This document shows, in pieces, positions 18,533-31,594 of a stretch of DNA of 38,320 bases; position 1 is the first letter of the stretch; each line of letters starts with the position of its first letter. The stretch lies in NCBI GenBank assembly GCA_029932915.1, contig JAOZPE010000026.1:1-38320 (forward strand). The letters are read 5' to 3'. The translations under genes were made by a program, and so were the position numbers. Source of the stretch: Candidatus Krumholzibacteriia bacterium (lineage in GTDB: Bacteria; Krumholzibacteriota; Krumholzibacteriia; JAJRXK01). The notes below the pieces were generated by a model. The model saw only the letters and a list, made by a program, of their open reading frames with translations, was not told the origin of the DNA and did not search any database.

Positions 18533-19390
18533 TCAACCTCCCTCCTCGTCCAGCCGGGCCGGATACATCGCATAGATCCTCTCTCCGGCCAGATGGGGTG
18601 CGCCCTGCGGCAGCGCGCTCGCGGCCGCCTTCTCGGCCTCGTCGATCCGTGCCGGTCCCACCAGTTCTCCCATCAGCACCACCTTCAGCCCCTCGGCGCT
18701 CCACAGGCGGTCGACGATCTCGAACATGCCGTCCATGTCCCGGTACGCGGCCAGACCGGCCAGGAAGGGCAGAACCGGCACACCGGAGGGCACCTGCCGG
18801 AGCAGTCCCCCCTCGCCAGCAAGGATCTCGATGAGGTCGGAGGTGTGCACCCGGGCCGGCGCATCGTCCGCCGCTCCATCGCCTTCCTCCACCACCCCAC
18901 TCTTCAGGTGTCCCACCCGATGCAGGCCGGTGACGAGGAAGACGAGGTGCACCGGTTCGGGCCAGTGCACCGGCGGCATGGAGAGTTCCTTCGCAGCCGC
19001 GTCGAAGGGTGCCTGGCACTCCACCAGCACCACGTCCGGAGCCAGCCGCCGGCGCAGTTCCTCGATCCCGGCCGCGTCCAGGCCCCCGCGGCCTTCCGCC
19101 GCGGCGGCTGCTCCAGCCACGAAGAGGGAACCCTCCGAGCTCAGGCGCTCCCGGAGACGGGGGAAGGGCTCGTCGACCCGGGCCTCGGGCACACCCTCCG
19201 GGGCCGGGTGCTCCACCGTCTGGGTCCACAGGACGCTGGCGCCCCGTTCCCGATAGTAGCGGTGCAGGCGGTGCAGGAGCGCCGTCTTGCCCCCCTCTCC
19301 CGCCACCGCGATCACCGGCCGGCCCTCCAACGGCAACAGCAGGGTCCACGGATCCAGGAAACGAAGTTCCTCATCTCCAATGGGTTTCAC
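18533..19390 (-). CDS. YqeC-like P-loop protein (selenium-cofactor accessory family)
   Basis: A 285-residue protein with an N-terminal nucleotide-binding loop AVAGEGGKTALLHRL (GEGGKT at 31-36), followed by ASVLWTQTVEHPAP where YqeC proteins have a TTTT-H-P stretch, then VVLVECQ and LVFLVTGLHRVG. This layout recalls YqeC, a poorly understood accessory of selenium-dependent molybdenum hydroxylases. No molybdenum hydroxylase or selenium gene lies in the window, so the role may differ. The GTG start overlaps the stop of the glycosyltransferase gene (GTGA), so the two are co-translated. A generic SIMIBI-type GTPase or ATPase is the alternative. Confidence 0.6.
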   Translation of the reverse strand: MKPIGDEELRFLDPWTLLLPLEGRPVIAVAGEGGKTALLHRLHRYYRERGASVLWTQTVEHPAPEGVPEARVDEPFPRLRERLSSEGSLFVAGAAAAAEGRGGLDAAGIEELRRRLAPDVVLVECQAPFDAAAKELSMPPVHWPEPVHLVFLVTGLHRVGHLKSGVVEEGDGAADDAPARVHTSDLIEILAGEGGLLRQVPSGVPVLPFLAGLAAYRDMDGMFEIVDRLWSAEGLKVVLMGELVGPARIDEAEKAAASALPQGAPHLAGERIYAMYPARLDEEGG

Positions 19391-20523
19391 CGTTCCTCCT
19401 CCACCTCGACCGCGCGTTCCAGCAGGGCGGCCAGACGATCGATGGACGTTCTCTCGTCGAAGTGGGTGCGCACCCGGCGGCGGGCCGCCTCGCCCATGCG
19501 CCCGGCCTGCCCGGGATCATCCCACAGGGCCCGAAGCGCGTCTCGCAGGGCCGGGGCATCGCCCGGAGGCACCAGCAATCCGGTCACGCCGTCCTCCTGC
19601 ACCGACGCCACCCCACCCGACGCGCGGGCCGCCACCACCGGCCGGCCGCGGGCCATCGCCTCCAGTTGCACCAGTCCGAAGGTCTCGCTCGGAGCCGTAC
19701 TGGGCAACACCAGCGCATGGCAGGAACGATACAGGGTGTCCAGACGGTCCGAGCCGACCTCTCCGAGGAAGCGAACCCTCTCCTGGAGGCCCCAGCGGCG
19801 GCTCAGCGCCTCCCAACGGCGGCGCAGTGGACCGTCGCCCACCACGGCCAGGGGCATCTCCTCCTCCTTGAGGGCGGCGAGCAGGACGTCCAGGCCCTTG
19901 TAGTACACCATCCGGCCCACGAAGAGGTAATAGCGCGTCCAGGGCAGTCCCGTCGCATCGCTGGCGTCCCCACCCCCGGACTCCCCCTCCACCTCGCCCA
20001 CATCCACCCCGAGGGGGATGACCACACAGCGGGCGCGGTGGGGCCGCAGGCTCCCGCTGCGCTCGAGCAGATCCTCGCTGCTGACGACGATGGCCGCCGC
20101 CCGCGTCAGGACCCTCTGCCGCAGGGGTTCGAGCAGGCGGCCCAGCCAGCGCTGGCGCACGATGTCGCTGTGGTAGCTGATCACCAGGGGAAGACCCCGG
20201 TCACCCAGGAACGACCAGGCCACGGCCATGGCCGGGTTCGGCAGGTGCAGATGCACGATCTGGGGACGGAAGCGGCGGACGACGCGGCGAATCGCCCAGG
20301 GAAGACCCGGATTCAGCGAGAGACTGCGCCACTGGCCCCAACGCCCCAGACGCAGCACCTCGACCCCCTCGAGCGTCTCGCTCCGGCTCCGCAGGCCGTC
20401 CCCGGAGACCAGCACCTGCACCCGATGGCCCCGCGCCGACAGGCCCAGGCAGGTGCGCCTCAGGACGGTCTCCATTCCCCCCCGGTGCGGAGGGTAGTAT
20501 TTTCCCAGCTCGAGAATGCGCAT
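19387..20523 (-). CDS. GT4-family glycosyltransferase
   Basis: A 378-residue GT-B retaining glycosyltransferase. The N-terminus MRILELGKYYPPHRGGMETV is the acceptor-side Rossmann start; HLHLPNP and YHSDIV follow; the donor half shows YLFVGRMVYYKGLDVLL, AVVGDGPLRRR and the E-x7-E signature in ETFGLVQLEAMARGRPVVA. The ATG at 20523 has agaggaa upstream. The frame is open to 21225, but that would overlap the divergent gene. It is divergent from the ceramide operon across 177 bases, so a lipid acceptor is conceivable, but a polysaccharide role is equally possible. Sugar and acceptor are unknown. Confidence 0.92.
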   Translation of the reverse strand: MRILELGKYYPPHRGGMETVLRRTCLGLSARGHRVQVLVSGDGLRSRSETLEGVEVLRLGRWGQWRSLSLNPGLPWAIRRVVRRFRPQIVHLHLPNPAMAVAWSFLGDRGLPLVISYHSDIVRQRWLGRLLEPLRQRVLTRAAAIVVSSEDLLERSGSLRPHRARCVVIPLGVDVGEVEGESGGGDASDATGLPWTRYYLFVGRMVYYKGLDVLLAALKEEEMPLAVVGDGPLRRRWEALSRRWGLQERVRFLGEVGSDRLDTLYRSCHALVLPSTAPSETFGLVQLEAMARGRPVVAARASGGVASVQEDGVTGLLVPPGDAPALRDALRALWDDPGQAGRMGEAARRRVRTHFDERTSIDRLAALLERAVEVEEER

Positions 20524-20646
20524 CGTTTCCTCTCGGGCGCCGGTCCTCCCCCATTCCGGCTCCGCCTCGGTCGGGCGGCTCCGCGCGTCCACGTCCTCCC
20601 AACGCTCCCCCAGGATGGAGAGAAAGCGCCGCGAGGGCAACGGGAG

Positions 20647-20675
20647 TTGATGGAGCGTCGCCGGGGACGTACAGT
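20647..20675 (+). promoter_or_regulatory. Candidate promoter of the sphingolipid operon
   Basis: TTGATG (20647-20652), an exact 17-base spacer and TACAGT (20670-20675), 25 bases before the ATG of the first operon gene, whose ribosome site aaggag follows at 20688-20693. Each hexamer matches four of six consensus bases. No other good candidate lies in the 177-base divergent gap. Confidence 0.5.
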
Positions 20676-20700
20676 GGAGCGACACCCAAGGAGTGGGAAG

Positions 20701-21414
20701 ATGGAGCAGAACAAGCCCCCAGCGACGGACTACGAGAGTCAGCCCCTCACCCGCGCCGAGTACGTGTCGGCCATCGTCCATCTCTACCGCGGCGAACTCT
20801 ACCGGGCCAACACCTGGAGGATCCGCCTCGATACCACCACCAATTGGGCCATCCTCACCACCGCCGGGCTGCTGAGCTACTCCTTCGGTTCGACCAACCA
20901 CTCCCACTGGATCCTCCTGGTGGGGGTCCTCCTGGTGAGCGCCCTGCTGGGCTACGAGGCCCGCCGCTTCCGCTTCTTCGACGTCTGGCGGGCCCGCGTC
21001 CGGAAGATCGAGGAGAACTTCTACGGCCCCATCCTCCGGCGGGACCCGGTGAGCCCCGACCGCGAATGGGGTAGGCGCGTGGCCGAGGATCTCCTGAATC
21101 CCCAGTTCAAGATCACCTTCCTGGCCGCTCTGAGGGCCCGTTTCCTTCGGAATTACTGGGTGATGTACATGGTTCTGCTCATGGCGTGGCTCCTGAAGGT
21201 GCTGCTGCATCCGGTCGAAGCCCATTCCTGGGCCGACCTGAGGGCCAATCTGGCCGCGGGGCCCATCGCCTGGTGGGTGCCGGTCATCTTTTCTCTGCTG
21301 TTGCTTGCGGCCATTCTCGCGCTATTCTTCCTTGCTCCGAAAGCTCCGCGCTCAGAAGATGCCTATTGGTCTTCCGACCGCGACAACGAAGACCTGTCCC
21401 TTCTCGACGTCTGA
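20701..21414 (+). CDS. DUF2270 integral membrane protein
   Basis: A 237-residue membrane protein of unknown function. The start LTRAEYVSAIVHLYRGELYR and the following RIRLDTTTNWAILTTAG, then YEARRFRFFDVWRARVRKIEENFY, are the DUF2270 pattern as I recall it. Four hydrophobic segments lie near 48-62, 70-84, 155-170 and 190-210. The ATG has aaggag seven bases upstream. Its stop lies only six bases before the serine palmitoyltransferase start, so it is the first gene of the ceramide operon. A role in sphingolipid handling is inferred from position only. Confidence 0.8.
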   Translation: MEQNKPPATDYESQPLTRAEYVSAIVHLYRGELYRANTWRIRLDTTTNWAILTTAGLLSYSFGSTNHSHWILLVGVLLVSALLGYEARRFRFFDVWRARVRKIEENFYGPILRRDPVSPDREWGRRVAEDLLNPQFKITFLAALRARFLRNYWVMYMVLLMAWLLKVLLHPVEAHSWADLRANLAAGPIAWWVPVIFSLLLLAAILALFFLAPKAPRSEDAYWSSDRDNEDLSLLDV

Positions 21415-21420
21415 GGATCG

Positions 21421-22650
21421 ATGAGTCCAGAAACGCAACCCAGCACATCGCCCGGGAACCAGGAGCACGCCGACGTCTTCCAGAAGGCCTACGCCTATAC
21501 CCGGGCCCAGGAGACCCGAGCCACCGGCCTGTACCCCTACTTCGTGCCCATCGAGGGAAGCGAGGGGACCGAGGTCGTCATCAACGGCCAACCGGTGGTG
21601 ATGCTGGGCTCGAACAACTACCTCGGGCTCACCCACGATCCACGGGTGCTGGAAGCCGGCGAGAAGGCCTCGCGGCTCTACGGAGCCGGGTGCACGGGCA
21701 GTCGCTTCCTCAATGGCACCCTCGATCTGCACCTGCAACTGGAGTCGCAGCTCGCCGAGTTCGTGGGCAAGGAGAGCGCCCTGGTCTTCTCCACCGGCTA
21801 TCAGACCAACCTGGGAACGATCTCGGCCCTGGTCGGCCGCAATGACGTCGCCCTGCTCGACAAGCTCGATCACGCCTGCATCGTCGACGGATCGAAGATG
21901 TCGATGGGCCAGGTGGCGCGCTTCCGCCACAACGACATGGACGATCTGCGCGCCCAGCTCGCCAAGATCGACCCGGACAAGGGGATCCTCGTCGCGGTCG
22001 ACGGCATCTTCTCCATGGAGGGTGACCTCACCCCCCTGCCGCAGGTGGTGGAGCTGGCCCATGCCTCAGGAGCCCGGGTCCTGGTGGACGAGGCCCATTC
22101 GGTGGGCGTGATGGGCAAGGGTGGAGCCGGCGTGGCCCAGCACTTCGGCCTGAGCCACGAGACCGATCTGATCATGGGAACCTTCTCGAAGTCGTTCGCC
22201 TCCATCGGCGGTTTCATCGCCGCCGACGAGCTCATCATCGACTATCTGCGGCACAACGCACGCACCATGATGTTCTCGGCGGCCATGCCTCCCTACGCGG
22301 TGGCCACGGTGCTCAAGAGCCTGGAGATCATCCGCACCGAACCGGAACGGCGCGAACGCCTGTGGGAGATCCAGCATTTCATGCAGCGTGAGTTGAAGAA
22401 CATGGGCTGGGACATCGGAGCAACGGAGACCCCGATCATCCCCATCGTGGTCGGAGAGAACCTGGACGCGTTCAAACTGTGGCGGGGCCTTCTCGACGGA
22501 GGCGTCTTCACCAACCCGGTGGTCTCGCCGGCGGTGCCCGAAGGCCGGGCGATGCTCCGCACCTCGTATATCGCGACCCACACCGACGAGCAGCTCCATC
22601 GCGCACTGGAGACCTTCTCGAAGGTGGGGAAGCAGATGGGTCTCATCTGA
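21421..22650 (+). CDS. spt: Serine palmitoyltransferase (alpha-oxoamine synthase)
   Basis: PLP enzyme of 409 residues, predicted to condense serine with a fatty acyl thioester to 3-ketosphinganine, the first step of sphingolipid synthesis. The opening GLYPYFVPIEGSEGTEVVI and MLGSNNYLGLTHDP is the form I associate with bacterial SPT. The family residues are present: LDHACIVDG (His151 stacking on PLP), DEAHSVGV (Asp223, His226) and TFSKSFASIGG (Schiff-base Lys257). 8-amino-7-oxononanoate synthase (BioF) and 2-amino-3-ketobutyrate ligase (Kbl) are sister enzymes; the N-terminal form and the two following genes favour SPT. The start follows gaggatcg; the gene lies six bases after the DUF2270 gene and 24 bases before the acyltransferase gene. 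Confidence 0.9.
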   Translation: MSPETQPSTSPGNQEHADVFQKAYAYTRAQETRATGLYPYFVPIEGSEGTEVVINGQPVVMLGSNNYLGLTHDPRVLEAGEKASRLYGAGCTGSRFLNGTLDLHLQLESQLAEFVGKESALVFSTGYQTNLGTISALVGRNDVALLDKLDHACIVDGSKMSMGQVARFRHNDMDDLRAQLAKIDPDKGILVAVDGIFSMEGDLTPLPQVVELAHASGARVLVDEAHSVGVMGKGGAGVAQHFGLSHETDLIMGTFSKSFASIGGFIAADELIIDYLRHNARTMMFSAAMPPYAVATVLKSLEIIRTEPERRERLWEIQHFMQRELKNMGWDIGATETPIIPIVVGENLDAFKLWRGLLDGGVFTNPVVSPAVPEGRAMLRTSYIATHTDEQLHRALETFSKVGKQMGLI

Positions 22651-22674
22651 TGGCACCTTCGCGGGGATCCTCCC

Positions 22675-23796
22675 ATGAGTCTTGAGATCCGCCCCGTCGC
22701 CGGCCGCAAGGATCTCGAGCGCTTCGCCCGCTTCCCCTGGGAGATCTACCGGGACGACCCCCACTGGGTTCCTCCCCTGCGAAGCGACGTGATCAAGCTG
22801 CTCACCCCGGGCAAGCATCCCTTCCACGAACACGCCGAGGTCCAACCCTTCCTCGCCTGGCGCGAGAACACGGTGGTGGGACGCATCGTGGCCACGGTGA
22901 ACCATGCGCACAACGAGTTCCACCACGACGAGGTGGGCTTCTTCGGTTTCCACGACGCGCTGCGCGCGGACGACGAGGCTTCCCTCCGTCTCTTCGAGAC
23001 CGCCTTCTCCTGGCTCAAGGAACGCGGGCGCAGCCACGCCATGGGACCCTTCGAGCTGTCCACCAACGAGATGTGCGGTCTGCTGGTGGAGGGTGAGCCG
23101 GGCCCGCCGGTGGTGATGATGCCCTACAATCCGCCGTGGTACCCCGAGCGCTACGAGGCGGCCGGACTGGTGAAGGCGAAGGACCTGCTGGCCTTCATCG
23201 TCCACGAGAACGACAAGCTCAAGCGCCTCTCGACACTGGCCGAGCAGCTCAAGAAGCGCAACAAGGTGAGGATCCGCCCGCTCGACATGAAGCACTTCGA
23301 CCGCGAGGTCGACCGGGTGATGGCCCTGTACAACGTGTGCTGGGAGAAGAACTGGGGCTTCGTCCCCATGAGCGCCGATGAGATCAAGCACTTCGCCGCC
23401 GAGGTCCGTTACGCCATCGATCCGGAGTTGACGCTGATCCTCGAACGGGAGGAGAGCGGCGAGCCCGTGGGCTTCATCCTCGCCCTGCCCGATCTGAACC
23501 GGGCCCTCAAGCATGCCAACGGCAGCCTCTTCCCCTTCGGATTGCTCAAGATCCTCTGGCACAAGCGCCACATCGACGGCGTCCGTGTGGTCACCCTGGG
23601 ACTCATCCCGCAGATGCGCGGCAAGGGCCTCGACGGCGTGCTCATCCAGGCCGTGGTCGAGACCGGTCTGAAGAAGGGGTACCACTGGGCCGAGTGCTCG
23701 TGGGTGCTGGAGGACAACATGCCGATGATCATCCCCCTGCAGAAGTTCGACGCCAAGCCCTACCGTAGATACCGCATCTACCAGAAGGCCCTGTGA
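22675..23796 (+). CDS. bcerS: GNAT-family bacterial ceramide synthase-like acyltransferase
   Basis: A 373-residue protein of the YghO-like GNAT family. Visible marks are FPWEIYRDDPHWVPPL at the start, the GPFELSTNEMCGLLVEG block (about 124-140), YNPPWYPERYEAAGLVKAKDLLAF, and a C-terminal acetyl-CoA-fold part with LGLIPQMRGKGLDGVLIQ and CSWVLEDNMPM. In Caulobacter a GNAT protein of this type, bCerS, N-acylates the sphingoid base during ceramide synthesis. Its place between spt and a CerR-like reductase supports that role. The ATG at 22675 has a weak ribosome site (gggga); it lies 24 bases after spt and 10 bases before the next gene. It is unrelated in fold to eukaryotic ceramide synthases. Confidence 0.82.
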   Translation: MSLEIRPVAGRKDLERFARFPWEIYRDDPHWVPPLRSDVIKLLTPGKHPFHEHAEVQPFLAWRENTVVGRIVATVNHAHNEFHHDEVGFFGFHDALRADDEASLRLFETAFSWLKERGRSHAMGPFELSTNEMCGLLVEGEPGPPVVMMPYNPPWYPERYEAAGLVKAKDLLAFIVHENDKLKRLSTLAEQLKKRNKVRIRPLDMKHFDREVDRVMALYNVCWEKNWGFVPMSADEIKHFAAEVRYAIDPELTLILEREESGEPVGFILALPDLNRALKHANGSLFPFGLLKILWHKRHIDGVRVVTLGLIPQMRGKGLDGVLIQAVVETGLKKGYHWAECSWVLEDNMPMIIPLQKFDAKPYRRYRIYQKAL

Positions 23797-23806
23797 GGGA
23801 AGCGCC

Positions 23807-24781
23807 GTGCTGGCCCTGGTCACCGGAGCCAACGGTTTCGTCGGAAGCCATCTGGTCGATCGTCTTCTCGAGGAAGGCCATCGCGTCCGCGTCCTGGTCC
23901 GCCGCACTTCCGATCTGCGCTTCCTCCCCCTCGAGCGCATCGAGGTCCACCGGGGGGAGCTCGCCCGGGGAGAGATCCCGCCCGAGGCCCTGCGCGACGT
24001 GGAGCTGCTCTTCCATACCGCAGCCCTGTTGAAGGCACCGGACTGGGCCACCTTCGTCCGGGTCAACGTCGACGCGACGGTGGAACTCCATCGCCTCTTC
24101 CTCCGCTCGGCCCCCTGGCACGCCCGCTTCATCTTCGTCTCCAGCCAGGCCGCGGCCGGGCCGAGCGACGCCGACGGGATCGTGGACGAGAAGAGCCCGG
24201 CCCATCCCCAGACGCTCTACGGCCGATCGAAGCTGGAGGCCGAACGGCGCCTGGCCGAGGAGGACGGACCGGCGTTGACCGTCATCCGTCCCCCGGCGGT
24301 CTACGGACCCCGTGACCGCGCCAGCCTGCCCCTCTTCCGCCTCGCCCGCTGGGGCTGGGCCTTCTGCATGGGTTCCCCGGACAGAAGGGTCTCCATGGTC
24401 CACGTGGACGATCTCAGCCGGGGAATGCTCGCCGCCGCGACCCATCCGGACGGCGTCGGCACCTTCTTCCTCACCGACGGTCCGCCGCACCGCTGGCGGG
24501 ACATCGCGGCGGCGCTGGCCGTGGCGGCCGATCGAAGGGTGCGCATCGTCACCCTGCCCGATGCGGCCGTCCATCTGGCGGGCGCGGCGAACGAATGGGC
24601 CCATCGCGTGGTGGGCCGGACTCCCCTCTTCAACCGTGAGAAGGCCCGCGATTTCACCGCGTCGGGGTGGGCCTGCAGCAGTGCGGCCGCGACGGCGGCG
24701 TTCCACTACCAGCCACGGATTCCCCTGGACGAGGGAATGAAGAGGACGATGGACTGGTACCGTTCCACGGGGTGGTTGTGA
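23807..24781 (+). CDS. cerR: NAD(P)-dependent epimerase/dehydratase, CerR-like ceramide reductase
   Basis: Extended short-chain dehydrogenase of 324 residues. The NAD(P) loop is TGANGFVGSHL (6-16), followed by the FHTAALLKAPDW region, VSSQAAAG (Ser112-113) and the catalytic YGRSK (Tyr138, Lys142), then VIRPPAVYGPRD. In Caulobacter an enzyme of this family, CerR, reduces the keto group of oxidised ceramide; the operon order here (spt, acyltransferase, reductase) supports the same step. The start is a GTG at 23807 with gaggga upstream. Its TGA stop shares one base with the ATG of the PAP2 gene. Hopanoid- or sterol-type dehydrogenases are the main alternatives. Confidence 0.82.
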   Translation: MLALVTGANGFVGSHLVDRLLEEGHRVRVLVRRTSDLRFLPLERIEVHRGELARGEIPPEALRDVELLFHTAALLKAPDWATFVRVNVDATVELHRLFLRSAPWHARFIFVSSQAAAGPSDADGIVDEKSPAHPQTLYGRSKLEAERRLAEEDGPALTVIRPPAVYGPRDRASLPLFRLARWGWAFCMGSPDRRVSMVHVDDLSRGMLAAATHPDGVGTFFLTDGPPHRWRDIAAALAVAADRRVRIVTLPDAAVHLAGAANEWAHRVVGRTPLFNREKARDFTASGWACSSAAATAAFHYQPRIPLDEGMKRTMDWYRSTGWL

Positions 24782-25734
24782 TGAACGAATCGACGAGGCA
24801 GGAGACACTCGGCACCTTCGGCCGGGGCATGCGACCGGCGGAGGGCGTGATCGCGATCTATCTGCTGTGGACGGTCCTCTTCCTTCCCTTCTTCCATCGG
24901 GGTGTGGAGAACTGGGATCGACTGGTTCTGATCAACCTGCTGCTGATGGCAGCGCTGGTGGCGGTGGGGCGTTTCCCGAGGATCGACAATCGCCTGCTGG
25001 CCGTGGGGCGGCGGCTGCTTCCCCTGGTCTTCATCCCCATCCTCTATTCGGAGGTGAAGGACCTCAACGACATGTTCTTCCCCCAGACCTACTTCGATTC
25101 GGTGGTCATCGTCTGGGAGAAGGCCCTCTTCGGAGGAAATGTCCTTCCCCTGGTCCTCCACCAGTGGCTGCCCTGGCGGCCGCTGTCCGAGTACCTGCAC
25201 TTCGCGTACCTGGCCTACTACGTGGTCATCCCCACGCCCTTCGTGGCCCTGGCGCTGACGCGGCAGTGGAAGCACCTGGAGCGCTACCTCACCGCGCTGA
25301 TGCTGGTCTTCGTGGTCTGTCAGTTGTGGTTCATCGCCTTCCCGGTGGCCGGGCCCTTCCACTACTACCCCGAACCCGATCCCTACTCGATGGGCCGGAT
25401 CTTCCCCCCGCTGGTCCATTCCATCCTGCACGGCGGCTCATCGGTGGGAACGGCCTTCCCCAGTTCACACTGTGCGGTGGCCGCCACCTGCTGGATCGTC
25501 GTGCTGCTGTGGGAGAAACGCGCGGCCTGGTTCCTGGCCTTCATCGTCCCCGCCCTGACGGTGGGTACGGTCTACGGCGGCTTCCACTACGGGGTCGACG
25601 CGCTGGCCGGCTGGCTGCTCGCCCTCATCCTCCTCCCGGTGTCCTTCTCCCTTCACCGGCGATGGGAGGAACGGAGGTGGGCCGGCGGCAGCGGCTTCAG
25701 TCCGTCGGTCTCAAGCGCGGCAGACCGAAACTGA
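24781..25734 (+). CDS. PAP2-superfamily AUR1-like phosphotransferase, putative phosphoceramide head-group synthase
   Basis: Polytopic membrane protein of 317 residues. It has the PAP2 C2 motif AFPSSHCAVA (His230) and C3 motif GGFHYGVDALAG (His269, Asp273), but I cannot find the first canonical phosphatase motif K-x6-RP. Instead VVIVWEKALFGG (108-119) and HFAYLAYYVVIP (140-151) recall AUR1-type inositol phosphorylceramide synthases. Last in an spt-bcerS-cerR operon and sharing one base with cerR, it is the natural candidate to transfer a phospho-head-group from a phospholipid to ceramide. Which head-group (inositol, ethanolamine or other) is unknown. A simple lipid phosphatase remains possible. 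Its 3' end overlaps the convergent MFS gene by 38 bases. Confidence 0.85.
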   Translation: MNESTRQETLGTFGRGMRPAEGVIAIYLLWTVLFLPFFHRGVENWDRLVLINLLLMAALVAVGRFPRIDNRLLAVGRRLLPLVFIPILYSEVKDLNDMFFPQTYFDSVVIVWEKALFGGNVLPLVLHQWLPWRPLSEYLHFAYLAYYVVIPTPFVALALTRQWKHLERYLTALMLVFVVCQLWFIAFPVAGPFHYYPEPDPYSMGRIFPPLVHSILHGGSSVGTAFPSSHCAVAATCWIVVLLWEKRAAWFLAFIVPALTVGTVYGGFHYGVDALAGWLLALILLPVSFSLHRRWEERRWAGGSGFSPSVSSAADRN

Positions 25735-26908
25735 ACAGCAACCAGGCGAAGCTGAGCGCCACCAGAACGGTTCCGATGAGCCGCGCTTCATCGAGCATCG
25801 CCCCTCCGAGCATGCCCCCGATGAACGAACCCAGGAATTGGGAGGTATGGAAGATCCCCGCCGCGGTGCCGCGCTGTTGTCTCTTCACCAGATGGGTCAG
25901 CAGAGCCGCCATCGCCGGTTCGGCCAGGGCGATCCCGGCCACCATGCAGATGATCACCGCCACACACCAACCGAGGCCCTGGGGCGCCATCGTCAGGAAC
26001 ACGGCCGCTCCCACCAGGAAGACGCTGCCGGCGATGATCGTCTCCTTCAGACGGGCCCAGCGGTCGGCAAGGATGACCGAGACCGCCATCAGGGCCACTC
26101 CACCCAGGACGATCGGTGCATAGATGCGGCCGTGCTCGGCCACCGGCCGGAAACGGGCGAGATAGGTCGGACCCACCACGAAGGCCGCGGTCACCATCAA
26201 GTGCAGCACGAAGATCCCGGTGTCCAGGCGCAGCAAGGAAACGTGATGGAGCAGGGCGTGACTCTGGCCACGCGTCCACTCCGTCTCCTCGTCGTGATGG
26301 TGGACCTCGACGCGGGGGATCAGCAGCATCACGTACAGCGCGCCCACCAGCGAGAGCACGGCCATGAGCCAGAACAGCGCCGGCGCTCCCATGCGATGGT
26401 AGATGGCCGGTCCGAACACCATGCCCACCGAGAACGACAGCCCCACCGCGACGCCGATCGTCCCCATCGCACGCGCCCGGTAGCGCGGACCACTCAGGTC
26501 GGCCATCAAGGCGACCAGCGCCGAGGCCACCGCTCCCGAACCCTGCAGGAAACGACCGATGATGAGCCACAACATGGAGTGCGCCTGGGCCGCGATGACG
26601 CTGCCCAGGGCGAAGAGCAGAAGACCGGCGACGATCGCACGGCGGCGGCCGTAACGGTCGCTCCAGATGCCGAAGGGGATCTGGAAGAGAGCCTGGGAGA
26701 ATCCGTAGATCCCCAGGCTCATTCCCACGAGGAGGGCGGTGCTTCCCCTCAGGGTCCCAGCGTAGAGACTGAGGACGGGAAGCACCAGGTACATGCCCAG
26801 GAGCCGCAGCCCGTACAGCGAAGCCAGGCCCAACACCACACGGGTGATCCGTCCGCGCTGAAGACCCTCTCCCGGCGAGGGCGAAGGCTGGGGAATGGAA
26901 GCACCCAA
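25697..26908 (-). CDS. YajR-like major facilitator transporter
   Basis: A 403-residue MFS protein with about 12 transmembrane helices. The region GLRLLGMYLVLPVLSLYAGTL, then GIYGFSQALFQIPFGIWSDRYGRR and GRFLQGSGAVASALVALMADL is very close to E. coli YajR; the HTSQFLGSFIGGMLGG segment near the end agrees. YajR's C-terminal ferredoxin-like domain is missing. No ATG precedes the first helix; I chose the TTG at 26908, which has aggaag about eight bases upstream and follows the etfA stop by two bases. The frame runs open to 27157 inside etfA, which I reject. The substrate is unknown. Confidence 0.87.
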   Translation of the reverse strand: MGASIPQPSPSPGEGLQRGRITRVVLGLASLYGLRLLGMYLVLPVLSLYAGTLRGSTALLVGMSLGIYGFSQALFQIPFGIWSDRYGRRRAIVAGLLLFALGSVIAAQAHSMLWLIIGRFLQGSGAVASALVALMADLSGPRYRARAMGTIGVAVGLSFSVGMVFGPAIYHRMGAPALFWLMAVLSLVGALYVMLLIPRVEVHHHDEETEWTRGQSHALLHHVSLLRLDTGIFVLHLMVTAAFVVGPTYLARFRPVAEHGRIYAPIVLGGVALMAVSVILADRWARLKETIIAGSVFLVGAAVFLTMAPQGLGWCVAVIICMVAGIALAEPAMAALLTHLVKRQQRGTAAGIFHTSQFLGSFIGGMLGGAMLDEARLIGTVLVALSFAWLLFSFGLPRLRPTD

Positions 26909-26910
26909 GG

Positions 26911-27888
26911 TCAGGCTTCCTGCGATTCCTTTACCGCTTCGATCAGGGCGGGCACGATCTCGGCCAGATCGCCCACCAGACCATAGGTGGCTTCCTGGAA
27001 GATGGGTGCGTTCGGATCGCGGTTGACCGCGACGATGCACTGCGATCCTCTCATCCCCACCAGGTGCTGGATGGCTCCGGAGATGCCCAGCGCGATGTAC
27101 AGCTTGGGCGCCACCACCTGACCGGACGAACCGATCTGGCGGAAGGACTCCACCCAACCGCTGTCACAGGGAGGTCGGGACGCGCCGACCGCGCCGCCGA
27201 GAGCCTCGGCCAGATCGAAGACGAGCTTGAACTTCTCCTCGTCTCCGACTCCACGGCCGCCGGCCACGATGATCTCCGCCTCGCTGAGGTCGACCTCGCC
27301 GGTCTCGCCCGGCTCGATGGAGAGGATCTTGCGGGGCTCGATCCCCCCCGCATCCACCGCCTTCTTCTCGACCGCGCCACCGCCCGGTGCTCCGCTCGGC
27401 GGGAAGGCCCCCTGCTGCAGACTCACCAGCGTCGGCCCTTCGCCGTTGACGGTGCAACGCGCATCGAGCTTGCCGTTCATCACCTTCCGGACGAAGACGA
27501 GTTTGTCCCCGTCACTCTCGATCGCGGTGCAGTCGGGCACCAGCGGCGCGTCCAGGACGGCGGCCAGGCGCGGGAAGTAGTCGATGGCCTGGTAGGAGTT
27601 GCCGGTGAGCACCAGCTCGGCGCCGCTCTCCTTGATGAAGTCGCCGAGGACCTTCACGTAGACCTCCGGCGTGTACTGCTCCACCTCGGAGCCCTCGAAG
27701 AGAACGACACCGCCGGGAGCCCACGATGCCAGCTCGTCGGCGAGGGCGTCGACCCCCTGACCCAGGATCACCGCGGAGACCTCGGCCGCGTCGTCGGCGA
27801 CCTGCAGCGCCGCCGTCAGGGCTTCCTTCGTGATTCCCTTGAGTGCGCCGTCGCGATGTTCGGCAACGACCAGAATCTTCTTCGCCAT
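26911..27888 (-). CDS. etfA: Electron transfer flavoprotein subunit alpha
   Basis: FAD-binding subunit of Etf, 325 residues, carrying electrons from acyl-CoA or other dehydrogenases to the quinone pool or to a bifurcating partner. The C-terminal FAD domain shows [32 protein letters not shown] and [23 protein letters not shown], the standard signature. The ATG has ggaggg upstream and lies 12 bases after the etfB stop. Neither an Etf:quinone oxidoreductase nor an acyl-CoA dehydrogenase lies in the window. Confidence 0.96.
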
Positions 27889-28942: not shown

Positions 28943-31594
28943 ATGATGGCCGACGAGACATTCAAAGAACATCTTCCCGATCCCGACCCCCAGGAAACCT
29001 CCGAGTGGATCGAGGCCCTCGATTCGGTGGTCGAGGTCTCCGGTCCTCAGCGCGCCCGCTTCCTCCTTTACAAGCTCTTGAAACGGGCCCGCATGCTCGA
29101 CCTCGGGGTTCCTCCGATGGTGACCACGCGCTACATCAACACCATCAGCCCCGAACAGGAGGCTCCCTTCCCCGGCGACGAGGAGATGGAGCGCCGCATC
29201 CGCCGCCTGATCCGCTGGAACGCGGCTGCGATGGTGACCCGGGCCAACGAACTCCATCCGGGACTGGGCGGCCATCTGTCGAGCTACGCCTCGGCGGCCA
29301 GCCTCTATGAGGTGGGCTTCAACCACTTCTTTCGTGGCAAGGACACAGACGAACTCGGCGATTTCATCTTCTATCAGGGCCACGCCGCACCGGGCCTCTA
29401 CGCCCGGGCCTTCCTCGAAGGACGTCTCAGCGAGGACCAGCTCCACCACTTCCGGCAGGAATCCGGGGGAAAGGGCCTGCCTTCGTATCCGCATCCGCGT
29501 TCGATGCCCGACTTCTGGGAGTTCCCGACCGTCTCGATGGGACTGGGCCCCTTGAACGCGATCTACCAGGCCCGCTTCCTCCGCTACGCGCAGGACCGGG
29601 GTCTCGTGGATGGCTCGCGGAGTCGGGTATGGGCCTTCCTCGGCGACGGGGAGACCGACGAACCGGAGGCCCTGGGCGCGCTCACCCTCGCCGCCCGCGA
29701 GGGGCTCGACAACCTCGTCTTCGTGGTGAACTGCAACCTGCAGCGCCTGGACGGTCCGGTGCGCGGCAACGGCAAGATCATCCAGGAACTGGAGGCCCGT
29801 TTCCGCGGCGCCGGCTGGAGGGTCATCAAGGTGATCTGGGGCCGCGAGTGGGACGAGCTGTTGCGCAACGACGTCGATGGCGTGCTCGTGCAGAAGATGA
29901 TGGACACTCCGGACGGCGAATGGCAGCGCTATCCAACCATGAGCGGCGGACAGATCCGCCAGGAGTTCTTCGGCAGTGATCCCCGCCTGCTGCGGCTCGT
30001 CGAGCATCTCAGCGATGAGGAGATCCAACACCTCCGCCGGGGCGGCCACGACTACCGCAAACTCTACGCGGCCTACCACAGCGCCACCGAGACCCAGGGT
30101 GTTCCCACCTGCATCCTCGCCCACACGGTGAAGGGCTGGACCCTCGGGGAGGGCATCGAGTCGCGCAACATGACCCATCAGATGAAGAAGCTCAGTGCGG
30201 CCGAGCTGAAGGTCTTCCGCGACCGCCTCGAGCTGCCCATCCCCGACGCCCGGCTGGAGGAGGCTCCCCTCTACCATCCCGGTCCGAACAGTCCGGAGAT
30301 CGAGTACATGCTCGAACGGCGCCGCGCGCTGGGTGGATGCCTCCCCCGCCGCCGCGTCGTCCCGGTGGAACTCGAGCTGCCCGGCGACGAGCTGTACGAC
30401 GCGTTCACCCAGGCGACGCCCGATGGAATGGAGATCTCCTCCACCATGGCCTTCGTCCGTCTGCTCCGGGCGCTCATGAAGGACGAGAAGATGGGACGCT
30501 ACGTGGTGCCCATCATTCCCGATGAGGCCCGGACCTTCGGCATGGAGAGTCTCTTCCGCGAGTTCAAGATCTACTCGGCGACGGGGCAGAACTACACGCC
30601 GGTCGACGCCGAGGTCCTGTTGCGCTACGTGGAGGCACAGGACGGACAGCTGCTGGAGGAGGGCATCAACGAGGCAGGCAGCATGGCCTCCTTCACCGCG
30701 GCCGCGACCGCCTACGCCAGCCTGCGCCGGCCCCTGATCCCCTTCTACATCTTCTACAGCATGTTCGGCTTCCAGAGGGTCGCCGATTCCATCTGGGCCA
30801 TGGCCGACGCGCGGGGACGCGGCTTCCTGCTGGGCGCCACCGCCGGTCGCACCACCCTGCAGGGCGAGGGACTCCAGCACCAGGACGGCCACAGCCACCT
30901 GACGGCCTCGGCGGTTCCCTCCTGCCGGGCCTACGACCCCTGCTGGCACTACGAGATCGCGATCATCGTCCGCGAGGGACTGCGCCGCATGATCGACGAG
31001 GGCGAGGACATCTTCTACTACCTCACCCTGTACAACGAGAACCACCCCATGCGGTCGATGCCGCCGGGCAGCCGCGAGGGCATCCTGCGCGGCGCCTACC
31101 GCGTCGAACGGCTCGGAGAGGACAAGGGAAGGAAGGTGCGGCTGGCCGGCAGCGGCCCCCTGCTGCGCGAGGCCCTCGCTGCGGCCGCGGTCCTCCACGA
31201 GCGGCACGATCTCACCGTCGAGGTGTTCAGCGTCACCTCGTGGACCGAGCTGCGCCGGGAGGCCCTGGCAAGCGAGGAGCGGGCGGACGGGGGGACGGGG
31301 GACGAGGCGAAGCCGGGTGAAGGGAAGCGGCGCCCGCGGACGCGGGGCGAAGGGAAGAGCCACCCGCGGACACCCTGGGTGCGTCAGGTCTTCGGCGGCG
31401 ACCCCTCTCCCATCGTGGCCGTCAGCGACTTCGTGCGCAGCGTACCCGAACTCATCCGCCCCTGGATCGACGCCCCCATGGTCGTCCTGGGAACCGATGG
31501 CTTCGGTCTGAGCGACACCCGTTCGGCCCTGCGACGGCACTTCGCCATCGACCGCGACGCCATCGTCCAGGCCGCCCTGGAGATATCGGAGTGA
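28943..31594 (+). CDS. aceE: Pyruvate dehydrogenase E1 component, homodimeric type
   Basis: Thiamine-diphosphate enzyme of 883 residues that decarboxylates pyruvate and passes the acetyl group to E2. Marks: ANELHPGLGGHLSSYAS (101-117), FYQGHAAPGLYARAFLEG, the ThDP motif GDGETDEPEA (234-243) ending in NLVFVVNCNLQRLDG, and DGHSHLTASAVPSCRAYDP in the C-terminal half. The C-terminal VLGTDGFGLSDTR is typical of AceE. Residues about 775-812 are an unusual Gly/Lys/Arg-rich insert with a ten-residue tandem repeat. Two adjacent ATG codons (28943, 28946) follow a weak gagg. No E2 or E3 gene follows in the window. Confidence 0.96.
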   Translation: MMADETFKEHLPDPDPQETSEWIEALDSVVEVSGPQRARFLLYKLLKRARMLDLGVPPMVTTRYINTISPEQEAPFPGDEEMERRIRRLIRWNAAAMVTRANELHPGLGGHLSSYASAASLYEVGFNHFFRGKDTDELGDFIFYQGHAAPGLYARAFLEGRLSEDQLHHFRQESGGKGLPSYPHPRSMPDFWEFPTVSMGLGPLNAIYQARFLRYAQDRGLVDGSRSRVWAFLGDGETDEPEALGALTLAAREGLDNLVFVVNCNLQRLDGPVRGNGKIIQELEARFRGAGWRVIKVIWGREWDELLRNDVDGVLVQKMMDTPDGEWQRYPTMSGGQIRQEFFGSDPRLLRLVEHLSDEEIQHLRRGGHDYRKLYAAYHSATETQGVPTCILAHTVKGWTLGEGIESRNMTHQMKKLSAAELKVFRDRLELPIPDARLEEAPLYHPGPNSPEIEYMLERRRALGGCLPRRRVVPVELELPGDELYDAFTQATPDGMEISSTMAFVRLLRALMKDEKMGRYVVPIIPDEARTFGMESLFREFKIYSATGQNYTPVDAEVLLRYVEAQDGQLLEEGINEAGSMASFTAAATAYASLRRPLIPFYIFYSMFGFQRVADSIWAMADARGRGFLLGATAGRTTLQGEGLQHQDGHSHLTASAVPSCRAYDPCWHYEIAIIVREGLRRMIDEGEDIFYYLTLYNENHPMRSMPPGSREGILRGAYRVERLGEDKGRKVRLAGSGPLLREALAAAAVLHERHDLTVEVFSVTSWTELRREALASEERADGGTGDEAKPGEGKRRPRTRGEGKSHPRTPWVRQVFGGDPSPIVAVSDFVRSVPELIRPWIDAPMVVLGTDGFGLSDTRSALRRHFAIDRDAIVQAALEISE
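31315..31371 (+). repeat. Two 27-base repeat copies, 30-base period, inside aceE
   Basis: Copies at 31315-31341 and 31345-31371 share 23 of 27 bases (core gaagggaag then cccgcggac). In frame they encode GEGKRRPRTR and GEGKSHPRTP (residues 792-811). A G-rich run with several G tracts (31280-31303) lies just before. The 30-base period keeps the aceE frame open. Confidence 0.8.

Follow-up and report, generated by a model that had tools for sequence, protein, structure and literature searches.

We analysed a stretch of 38,320 nucleotides, referred to as the window, from the draft genome of a Candidatus Krumholzibacteriia bacterium (contig JAOZPE010000026.1), in which four adjacent genes at 21421-25734 encode homologues of sphingolipid enzymes. 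We read this block as a portable phosphosphingolipid cassette that would produce inositol phosphorylceramide (IPC) from one transcript, and we give this reading a probability of roughly 0.62. A ceramide backbone is the likely product, the transfer of a phospho-head-group by the PAP2 protein encoded last is probable, and inositol is a plausible head group. The first-pass annotation of the window had proposed that ceramide and its phospho-head-group arise from a single transcript. This prediction is supported, as are its assignments of the serine palmitoyltransferase (Spt), bacterial ceramide synthase (bCerS), CerR and AUR1-like homologues.

The genes follow one another on the forward strand as Spt (21421-22650), an N-acyltransferase (22675-23796), a reductase (23807-24781, GTG start) and the PAP2 protein (24781-25734), preceded by a gene for a DUF2270 membrane protein (20701-21414; PF10028, E 1.4e-55). 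We reproduced all five open reading frames with their positions, order and strand and successive gaps of 6, 24, 10 and -1 bases, the ATG of the PAP2 gene overlapping the stop codon of the reductase gene by 1 base. Because the four cassette genes overlap or nearly touch, they probably form one transcript. A sigma-70 consensus scan of 20300-26000, which does not reach other promoter types, detected no promoter at all and so did not recover the candidate previously placed ahead of the genes. Transcription of the cassette perhaps starts from a promoter ahead of DUF2270, and since the gap is only 6 bases, the DUF2270 gene itself is possibly co-transcribed.

The window's genome (G000) is a 2.92 Mb draft of 98 contigs, and we compared its synteny with that of three relatives from the same family (G001, G002 and G003). 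The block of glycosyltransferase, DUF2270, MFS transporter, EtfA and EtfB genes is kept in all three with 47-69% protein identity, and between the DUF2270 and MFS genes none of the three contains an Spt, GNAT, CerR or PAP2 gene. The stop ends of these two genes are 2 (G003), -4 (G002) and -4 (G001) bases apart, as opposed to 4,282 in the window. Therefore, the block 21421-25734 occupies a position that is vacant in all three relatives, and its right-hand boundary is the 3' end of the convergent MFS gene (25697-26920, reverse strand; PF07690, E 2.4e-58). G003 carries its own four-gene copy in identical order on a different contig. The empty site in the nearest relatives suggests that the cassette, and with it the trait, can be acquired or relocated in one piece; we infer this movement from the filled versus the empty site. 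The base composition gave no hint of a recent arrival from elsewhere: the GC content, the GC content at third codon positions (GC3) and the codon use of the cassette match those of its neighbours, and any transfer would therefore be old or from a similar genome.

The first cassette gene encodes an alpha-oxoamine synthase of the aminotransferase I/II fold (Pfam), dependent on pyridoxal phosphate (PLP), which we assign as an Spt of the Bacteroidota/Sphingobacterium-like type. Its PLP lysine lies within GTFSKSFASIGGF, and the alignment to 8guh recovered the contexts of both the PLP lysine (GTFSKS) and the active-site histidine (DHACIVDG). The best match in the PDB was the Sphingobacterium Spt (8guh/3a2b, 457 bits), compared with 307 bits for the Sphingomonas Spt (2x8u), 292 bits for the BioF/Kbl-type 8s1y, and 249 bits each for cysteate acyltransferase (28eh) and E. 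coli Kbl (1fc4). The highest-scoring NCBIfam model was NF047600 (SerpalmtaseCFB), at 543 bits against a cut-off of 640; the Spt from Reichenbachiella reached 676 bits. In a maximum-likelihood tree of 53 proteins, a branch with 97/97 support set the Spt proteins apart from the BioF and Kbl of E. coli and from the second paralogue of G000 itself. The window protein grouped (100/95) with the Spt of G003 and that of the nearest named cassette, from a metagenome-assembled genome (MAG) labelled Candidatus Eisenbacteria (L062). We thus file the protein as a predicted Spt by its place in the tree, outside the NF047600 equivalog.

Approximately unbiased (AU) tests, for which the groups were chosen after the tree was known, rejected a forced grouping of the 21421 gene with BioF and Kbl (p-AU 0.021). 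Also rejected, with p-AU 0.0005, was a single Spt clade uniting the two cassette-bearing families of the class, the window's own and the other one. By this phylogeny there are two distinct Spt lineages within the class, which argues for transfer or replacement. One ancient gain followed by relocation is indistinguishable from two gains, since the analysis neither showed nor rejected that the Spt proteins of the window and of G003 are sisters (p-AU 0.108).

The second gene encodes a 373-residue protein with a weak GNAT domain (PF00583, E 2.8e-6). Its structural model (predicted local distance difference test score, pLDDT, of 86) has tandem GNAT proteins as best PDB matches. A full-length homologue is E. 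coli YghO, with which the protein shares 35% identity across 382 aligned columns (E 6e-75); the yghO gene, also called aca, has been listed as corresponding to Caulobacter CC_1154, which encodes the CerS (PMC9386255). The yghO locus of E. coli contains lptF, lptG, spt, acpR, cerR and aasR, the names of the middle genes being those of PMC9386255. The GNAT gene adjoins spt in the window and in most Spt-bearing loci, and a quick GNAT tree placed the window protein without strong support. We consider the 22675 protein a putative bCerS-like N-acyltransferase of the long-chain base. Two outcomes that the first-pass annotation had set against its own reading, placement of the 21421 gene with BioF or Kbl and a 22675 protein outside the bCerS relatives, did not occur.

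The reductase encoded by the third gene, with 324 residues, belongs to the NAD-dependent SDR/epimerase family (PF01370, E 3e-29) and bears the nucleotide-binding motif TGANGFVGSH near its N-terminus. It shares 29% identity (E 1e-32) with the E. coli cerR counterpart located beside acpR-spt and 27% over 331 columns (E 6e-49) with the spt-adjacent CerR of Reichenbachiella. Reduction of the 3-keto group is the activity predicted from this homology. A periplasmic location of CerR has been established in Caulobacter only (PMC11087976). Some genomes of family f5, which belongs to the window's class, have another CerR-like SDR gene next to a PAP2 gene at a distance from Spt (L059 in G067, L042 in G066), an arrangement that suggests a second, partial sphingolipid-type locus.

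The last gene of the cassette encodes a PAP2_3/AUR1-like membrane protein (PF14378, E 2.9e-18), which is probably a transferase of a phospho-head-group, such as phosphoinositol, to ceramide. The catalytic-type residues H230, H269 and D273, located in FPSSH and FHYGVDALAG, are invariant in a 16-member alignment, and the family profile matches yeast AUR1 (9ivc/9vj3) over the whole domain with an E value of about 1e-6. At E<=0.001, the AlphaFold model (pLDDT 87.9) matched only two PDB entries by fold, each a yeast IPC synthase (9vj4, E 5e-5; 9ivc, E 7e-5). LpxE (0.02) and a human sphingomyelin synthase-related protein (0.056) came next. The fold, the PAP2-type domain and the FPS(L/S)H and HYxVDxxAG motifs are common to the window protein and yeast AUR1, whereas their identity in the fold alignment is 19%. 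The earlier assignments of all four proteins, as Spt, bCerS-like, CerR-like and AUR1-like, are thus borne out.

Among the 80 best of at least 582 GNAT relatives in named genomes, an uneven sample, 13 loci have Spt, GNAT, CerR and PAP2 genes in this order on one strand, mostly in Gemmatimonadota, with Eisenbacteria and Acidobacteria MAGs in addition. A PAP2 gene lies within 3.5 kb in 23 of the 80. This recurrence makes the four-gene order more than chance; it is also found identically in family f5, and Bryobacterales have the order CerR-PAP2-GNAT-Spt. Bacterial cerS has been stated to lie always in an operon separate from spt and cerR (PMC11324152). The loci of the window, of Gemmatimonadota and of Streptomyces and Rubrobacter plasmids differ from this statement, as a cerS-like gene stands directly between spt and cerR.

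The two plasmid operons, of the form Spt-GNAT-CerR, are actinobacterial (L173 from Streptomyces, L174 from Rubrobacter). The gene after the operon encodes a condensation-domain protein in Streptomyces and an LTA-synthase-family protein in Rubrobacter, both possible head-group or modification enzymes of other kinds. On a plasmid of Roseomonas mucosa (L171), a bCerS homologue is lined up with two LptF/LptG-family permeases and a sterol-desaturase-family protein, with diacylglycerol-kinase-family and CDP-alcohol phosphotransferase genes nearby, resembling a phosphosphingolipid and transport locus.

The supply of a head group was followed in the rest of G000. A myo-inositol-phosphate synthase (MIPS) gene at C77 and a PgpA-family phosphatase gene both scored over their family cut-offs. 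The sole CDP-alcohol phosphotransferase detected, at C21, resembles phosphatidylinositol-phosphate (PIP) synthases, with scores all below cut-off (NF040950, 151.6 bits; NF045883, 141.8 bits; NF052561 'PIPSynBT1523', 114 bits). A search of G000 for phosphatidylserine (PS) decarboxylase found none. Because of the MIPS, PIP-synthase-like and PgpA genes and the lack of a detected PS decarboxylase, the gene set of G000 fits an inositol better than an ethanolamine head group. Genomes of the window's family have one or two CDP-alcohol phosphotransferase genes, as opposed to three or four in most other families sampled. With so few of these genes, one of them PIP-synthase-like, and no PS decarboxylase found, the membranes of the family may be based on inositol phospholipids rather than phosphatidylethanolamine (PE) (whole genome of G000; L170:1423-2025, L175:6491-7807, L191).

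One close parallel is the route to phosphatidylinositol (PI)-derived dihydroceramide (DHC) lipids in Bacteroides, which uses MIPS, PIP synthase (PIPS), a PgpA-family PIP phosphatase and an AUR1-like enzyme (PMC9246714). In B. thetaiotaomicron these are BT_1526, BT_1523, BT_1525 and the PI-DHC synthase BT_1522, respectively, with Spt encoded by BT_0870 (PMC9246714). By that description, the window resembles Bacteroides in its Bacteroidota-type Spt, its AUR1-like PAP2 enzyme and the MIPS, PIPS-like and PgpA genes of its genome. The arrangement is different: in Bacteroides the head-group gene sits in the inositol cluster apart from spt, whereas in the window the AUR1-like gene ends the ceramide operon, with the inositol genes located at other sites of the genome. 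The window also shares Spt (39% identity), CerR (29%) and CerS (35%) homologues with the E. coli set, which represents the Rhodobacteria type of Caulobacter and E. coli with aasR, cerR, acpR, spt and cerS (yghO) (PMC9386255, PMC11324152). Unlike that type, 20701-25734 and its immediate neighbours contain no acyl carrier protein or acyl-AMP ligase gene (acpR, aasR), and in Caulobacter the head group is begun by a ceramide kinase instead of a PAP2 protein (PMC11324152).

We propose the following pathway. Spt would condense serine with a fatty acyl thioester, more likely acyl-CoA, because the block lacks acpR and aasR and carries a Bacteroidota-type Spt. N-acylation of the long-chain base would fall to the tandem GNAT enzyme and 3-keto reduction to CerR; which of the two comes first is disputed in the literature. 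Finally, the AUR1-like PAP2 protein would move a phospho-head-group from a glycerophospholipid onto ceramide; with PI as the most likely donor, phosphoinositol transfer would give IPC.

The four genes might, more boldly, constitute a self-contained and transferable spt-bCerS-cerR-AUR1-like module that converts serine and acyl-CoA to IPC from one transcript and has moved among sites and several phyla. We hold this wider proposal tentatively, at somewhat less than even odds. If true, it would run counter to the published rule that cerS of bacteria always lies in a separate operon.

Several observations weigh against the cassette reading. The Spt stays under the NF047600 equivalog cut-off, as do the Spt proteins of G003, L062, L072 and L057. 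The fold match of the PAP2 protein to the IPC synthases is moderate (TM-scores of 0.58 and 0.64), its single sequence retrieved no PDB sequence match at E<=1, and PAP2 phosphatases also match the family profile, over its C-terminal half. The genome is a draft estimated at 98% completeness and 4% contamination, and the relatives may instead have lost the cassette, which would also account for their empty sites. The PIP-synthase-like and PgpA genes are away from the cassette. The presence of MIPS in G000 is weak evidence, because nearly all genomes of the phylum (67 of 78) have the gene. As a test of an inositol head group, MIPS co-occurrence in other genomes was too weak to be decisive: the gene was found in 11 of the 13 that have a PAP2 cassette and in 7 of the 13 that lack one. 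The activities proposed for members of this branch are all predicted ones.

The first three genes could make ceramide while the PAP2 protein acts as a lipid phosphatase on PIP, ceramide 1-phosphate, an isoprenoid phosphate or lipid A phosphate, so that the end product would be ceramide that is either free or decorated in another way. Most members of the PAP2 superfamily are phosphatases, the C-terminal matches to the family profile include YodM and LpxE, and ceramide decoration in Caulobacter runs through a kinase (PMC11324152). However, LpxE fell short of the fold threshold that only the two IPC synthases passed, the best Pfam family is PAP2_3 rather than PAP2, the gene is repeatedly linked to ceramide genes, and a separate PgpA-family gene is available to dephosphorylate PIP; we regard the phosphatase as unlikely. 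A transferase that delivers phosphoethanolamine, phosphoglycerol or another group instead of phosphoinositol is about equally improbable. The head group of a PAP2-type transferase is not readable from sequence, and no MIPS was found in two MAGs with PAP2 cassettes (L114 and L123), but the lack of a detected PS decarboxylase leaves no obvious PE donor in G000, whose single CDP-alcohol enzyme is PIP-synthase-like, and the closest solved structures are IPC synthases.

At the other end of the pathway, the alpha-oxoamine synthase might use alanine, glycine or cysteate and thereby lead to 1-deoxyceramides or sulfonolipids. This is in keeping with its score below the Spt equivalog cut-off and with a proposal, in a Black Sea survey, that Spt-like proteins of other phyla make 1-deoxyceramides (PMC11334938). 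We judge it quite improbable, given the much higher score to the Sphingobacterium Spt than to cysteate acyltransferase or Kbl, and a downstream head-group transferase would presumably require the 1-hydroxyl that 1-deoxyceramide lacks. Least probable by far is a functional five-gene operon with DUF2270 acting in sphingolipid synthesis or transport, for which a 6-base gap, a shared strand and a membrane protein speak. The gene has unchanged neighbours where no cassette is inserted, occurs in G001, G002 and G008, in which no GNAT match was found, and was missing next to every other cluster examined, so that a conserved link between DUF2270 and the other four genes is largely refuted. On the synteny at the cassette-free sites of the three relatives, we reject DUF2270 as a functional member. 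Of the five-gene sphingolipid operon in the first-pass annotation, the four genes at 21421-25734 stand, and DUF2270 belongs to older synteny with the cassette lying behind it.

The suggestion of the first-pass annotation that sphingolipid synthesis is hereby extended to an uncultivated lineage was overstated: Spt-like proteins of 38 phyla from the Black Sea, often clustered with bCerS and CerR, are already described (PMC11334938). Those MAGs likewise have clustered ceramide backbone genes in environmental genomes; the account follows three backbone genes, and the parts of it that were covered describe no PAP2 head-group gene and no filled and empty site. A literature search, with most subscription papers outside its reach, retrieved no account of a cassette with an AUR1-like gene or of filled and empty sites. 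What is new is a cassette that includes an IPC-synthase-like gene, together with its filled and empty site, Spt in uncultivated phyla being already known. If our reading is true, complex phosphosphingolipid synthesis including the head group could be predicted from a four-gene signature rather than from Spt alone, also for uncultivated bacteria of soil, groundwater and sediment. The cassette would also offer a compact single-transcript construct to address the disputed order of N-acylation and reduction, as well as bacterial AUR1-like enzymes that could be compared with their fungal counterpart, a drug target.

Around the cassette, the divergent glycosyltransferase gene (19387-20523, reverse strand; GT4-type, PF00534, E 5.6e-36) is part of the background synteny (L178, L179, L180). 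Next to it lies a gene for a YqeC-family protein (18533-19390, reverse strand; PF19842, E 2e-8), a family usually associated with selenium-dependent molybdenum hydroxylases. Further downstream, an AceE-type pyruvate dehydrogenase E1 gene (28943-31594, forward strand) is probably a piece of the old synteny as well, because a matching open reading frame holds the same place beside EtfB in G001.

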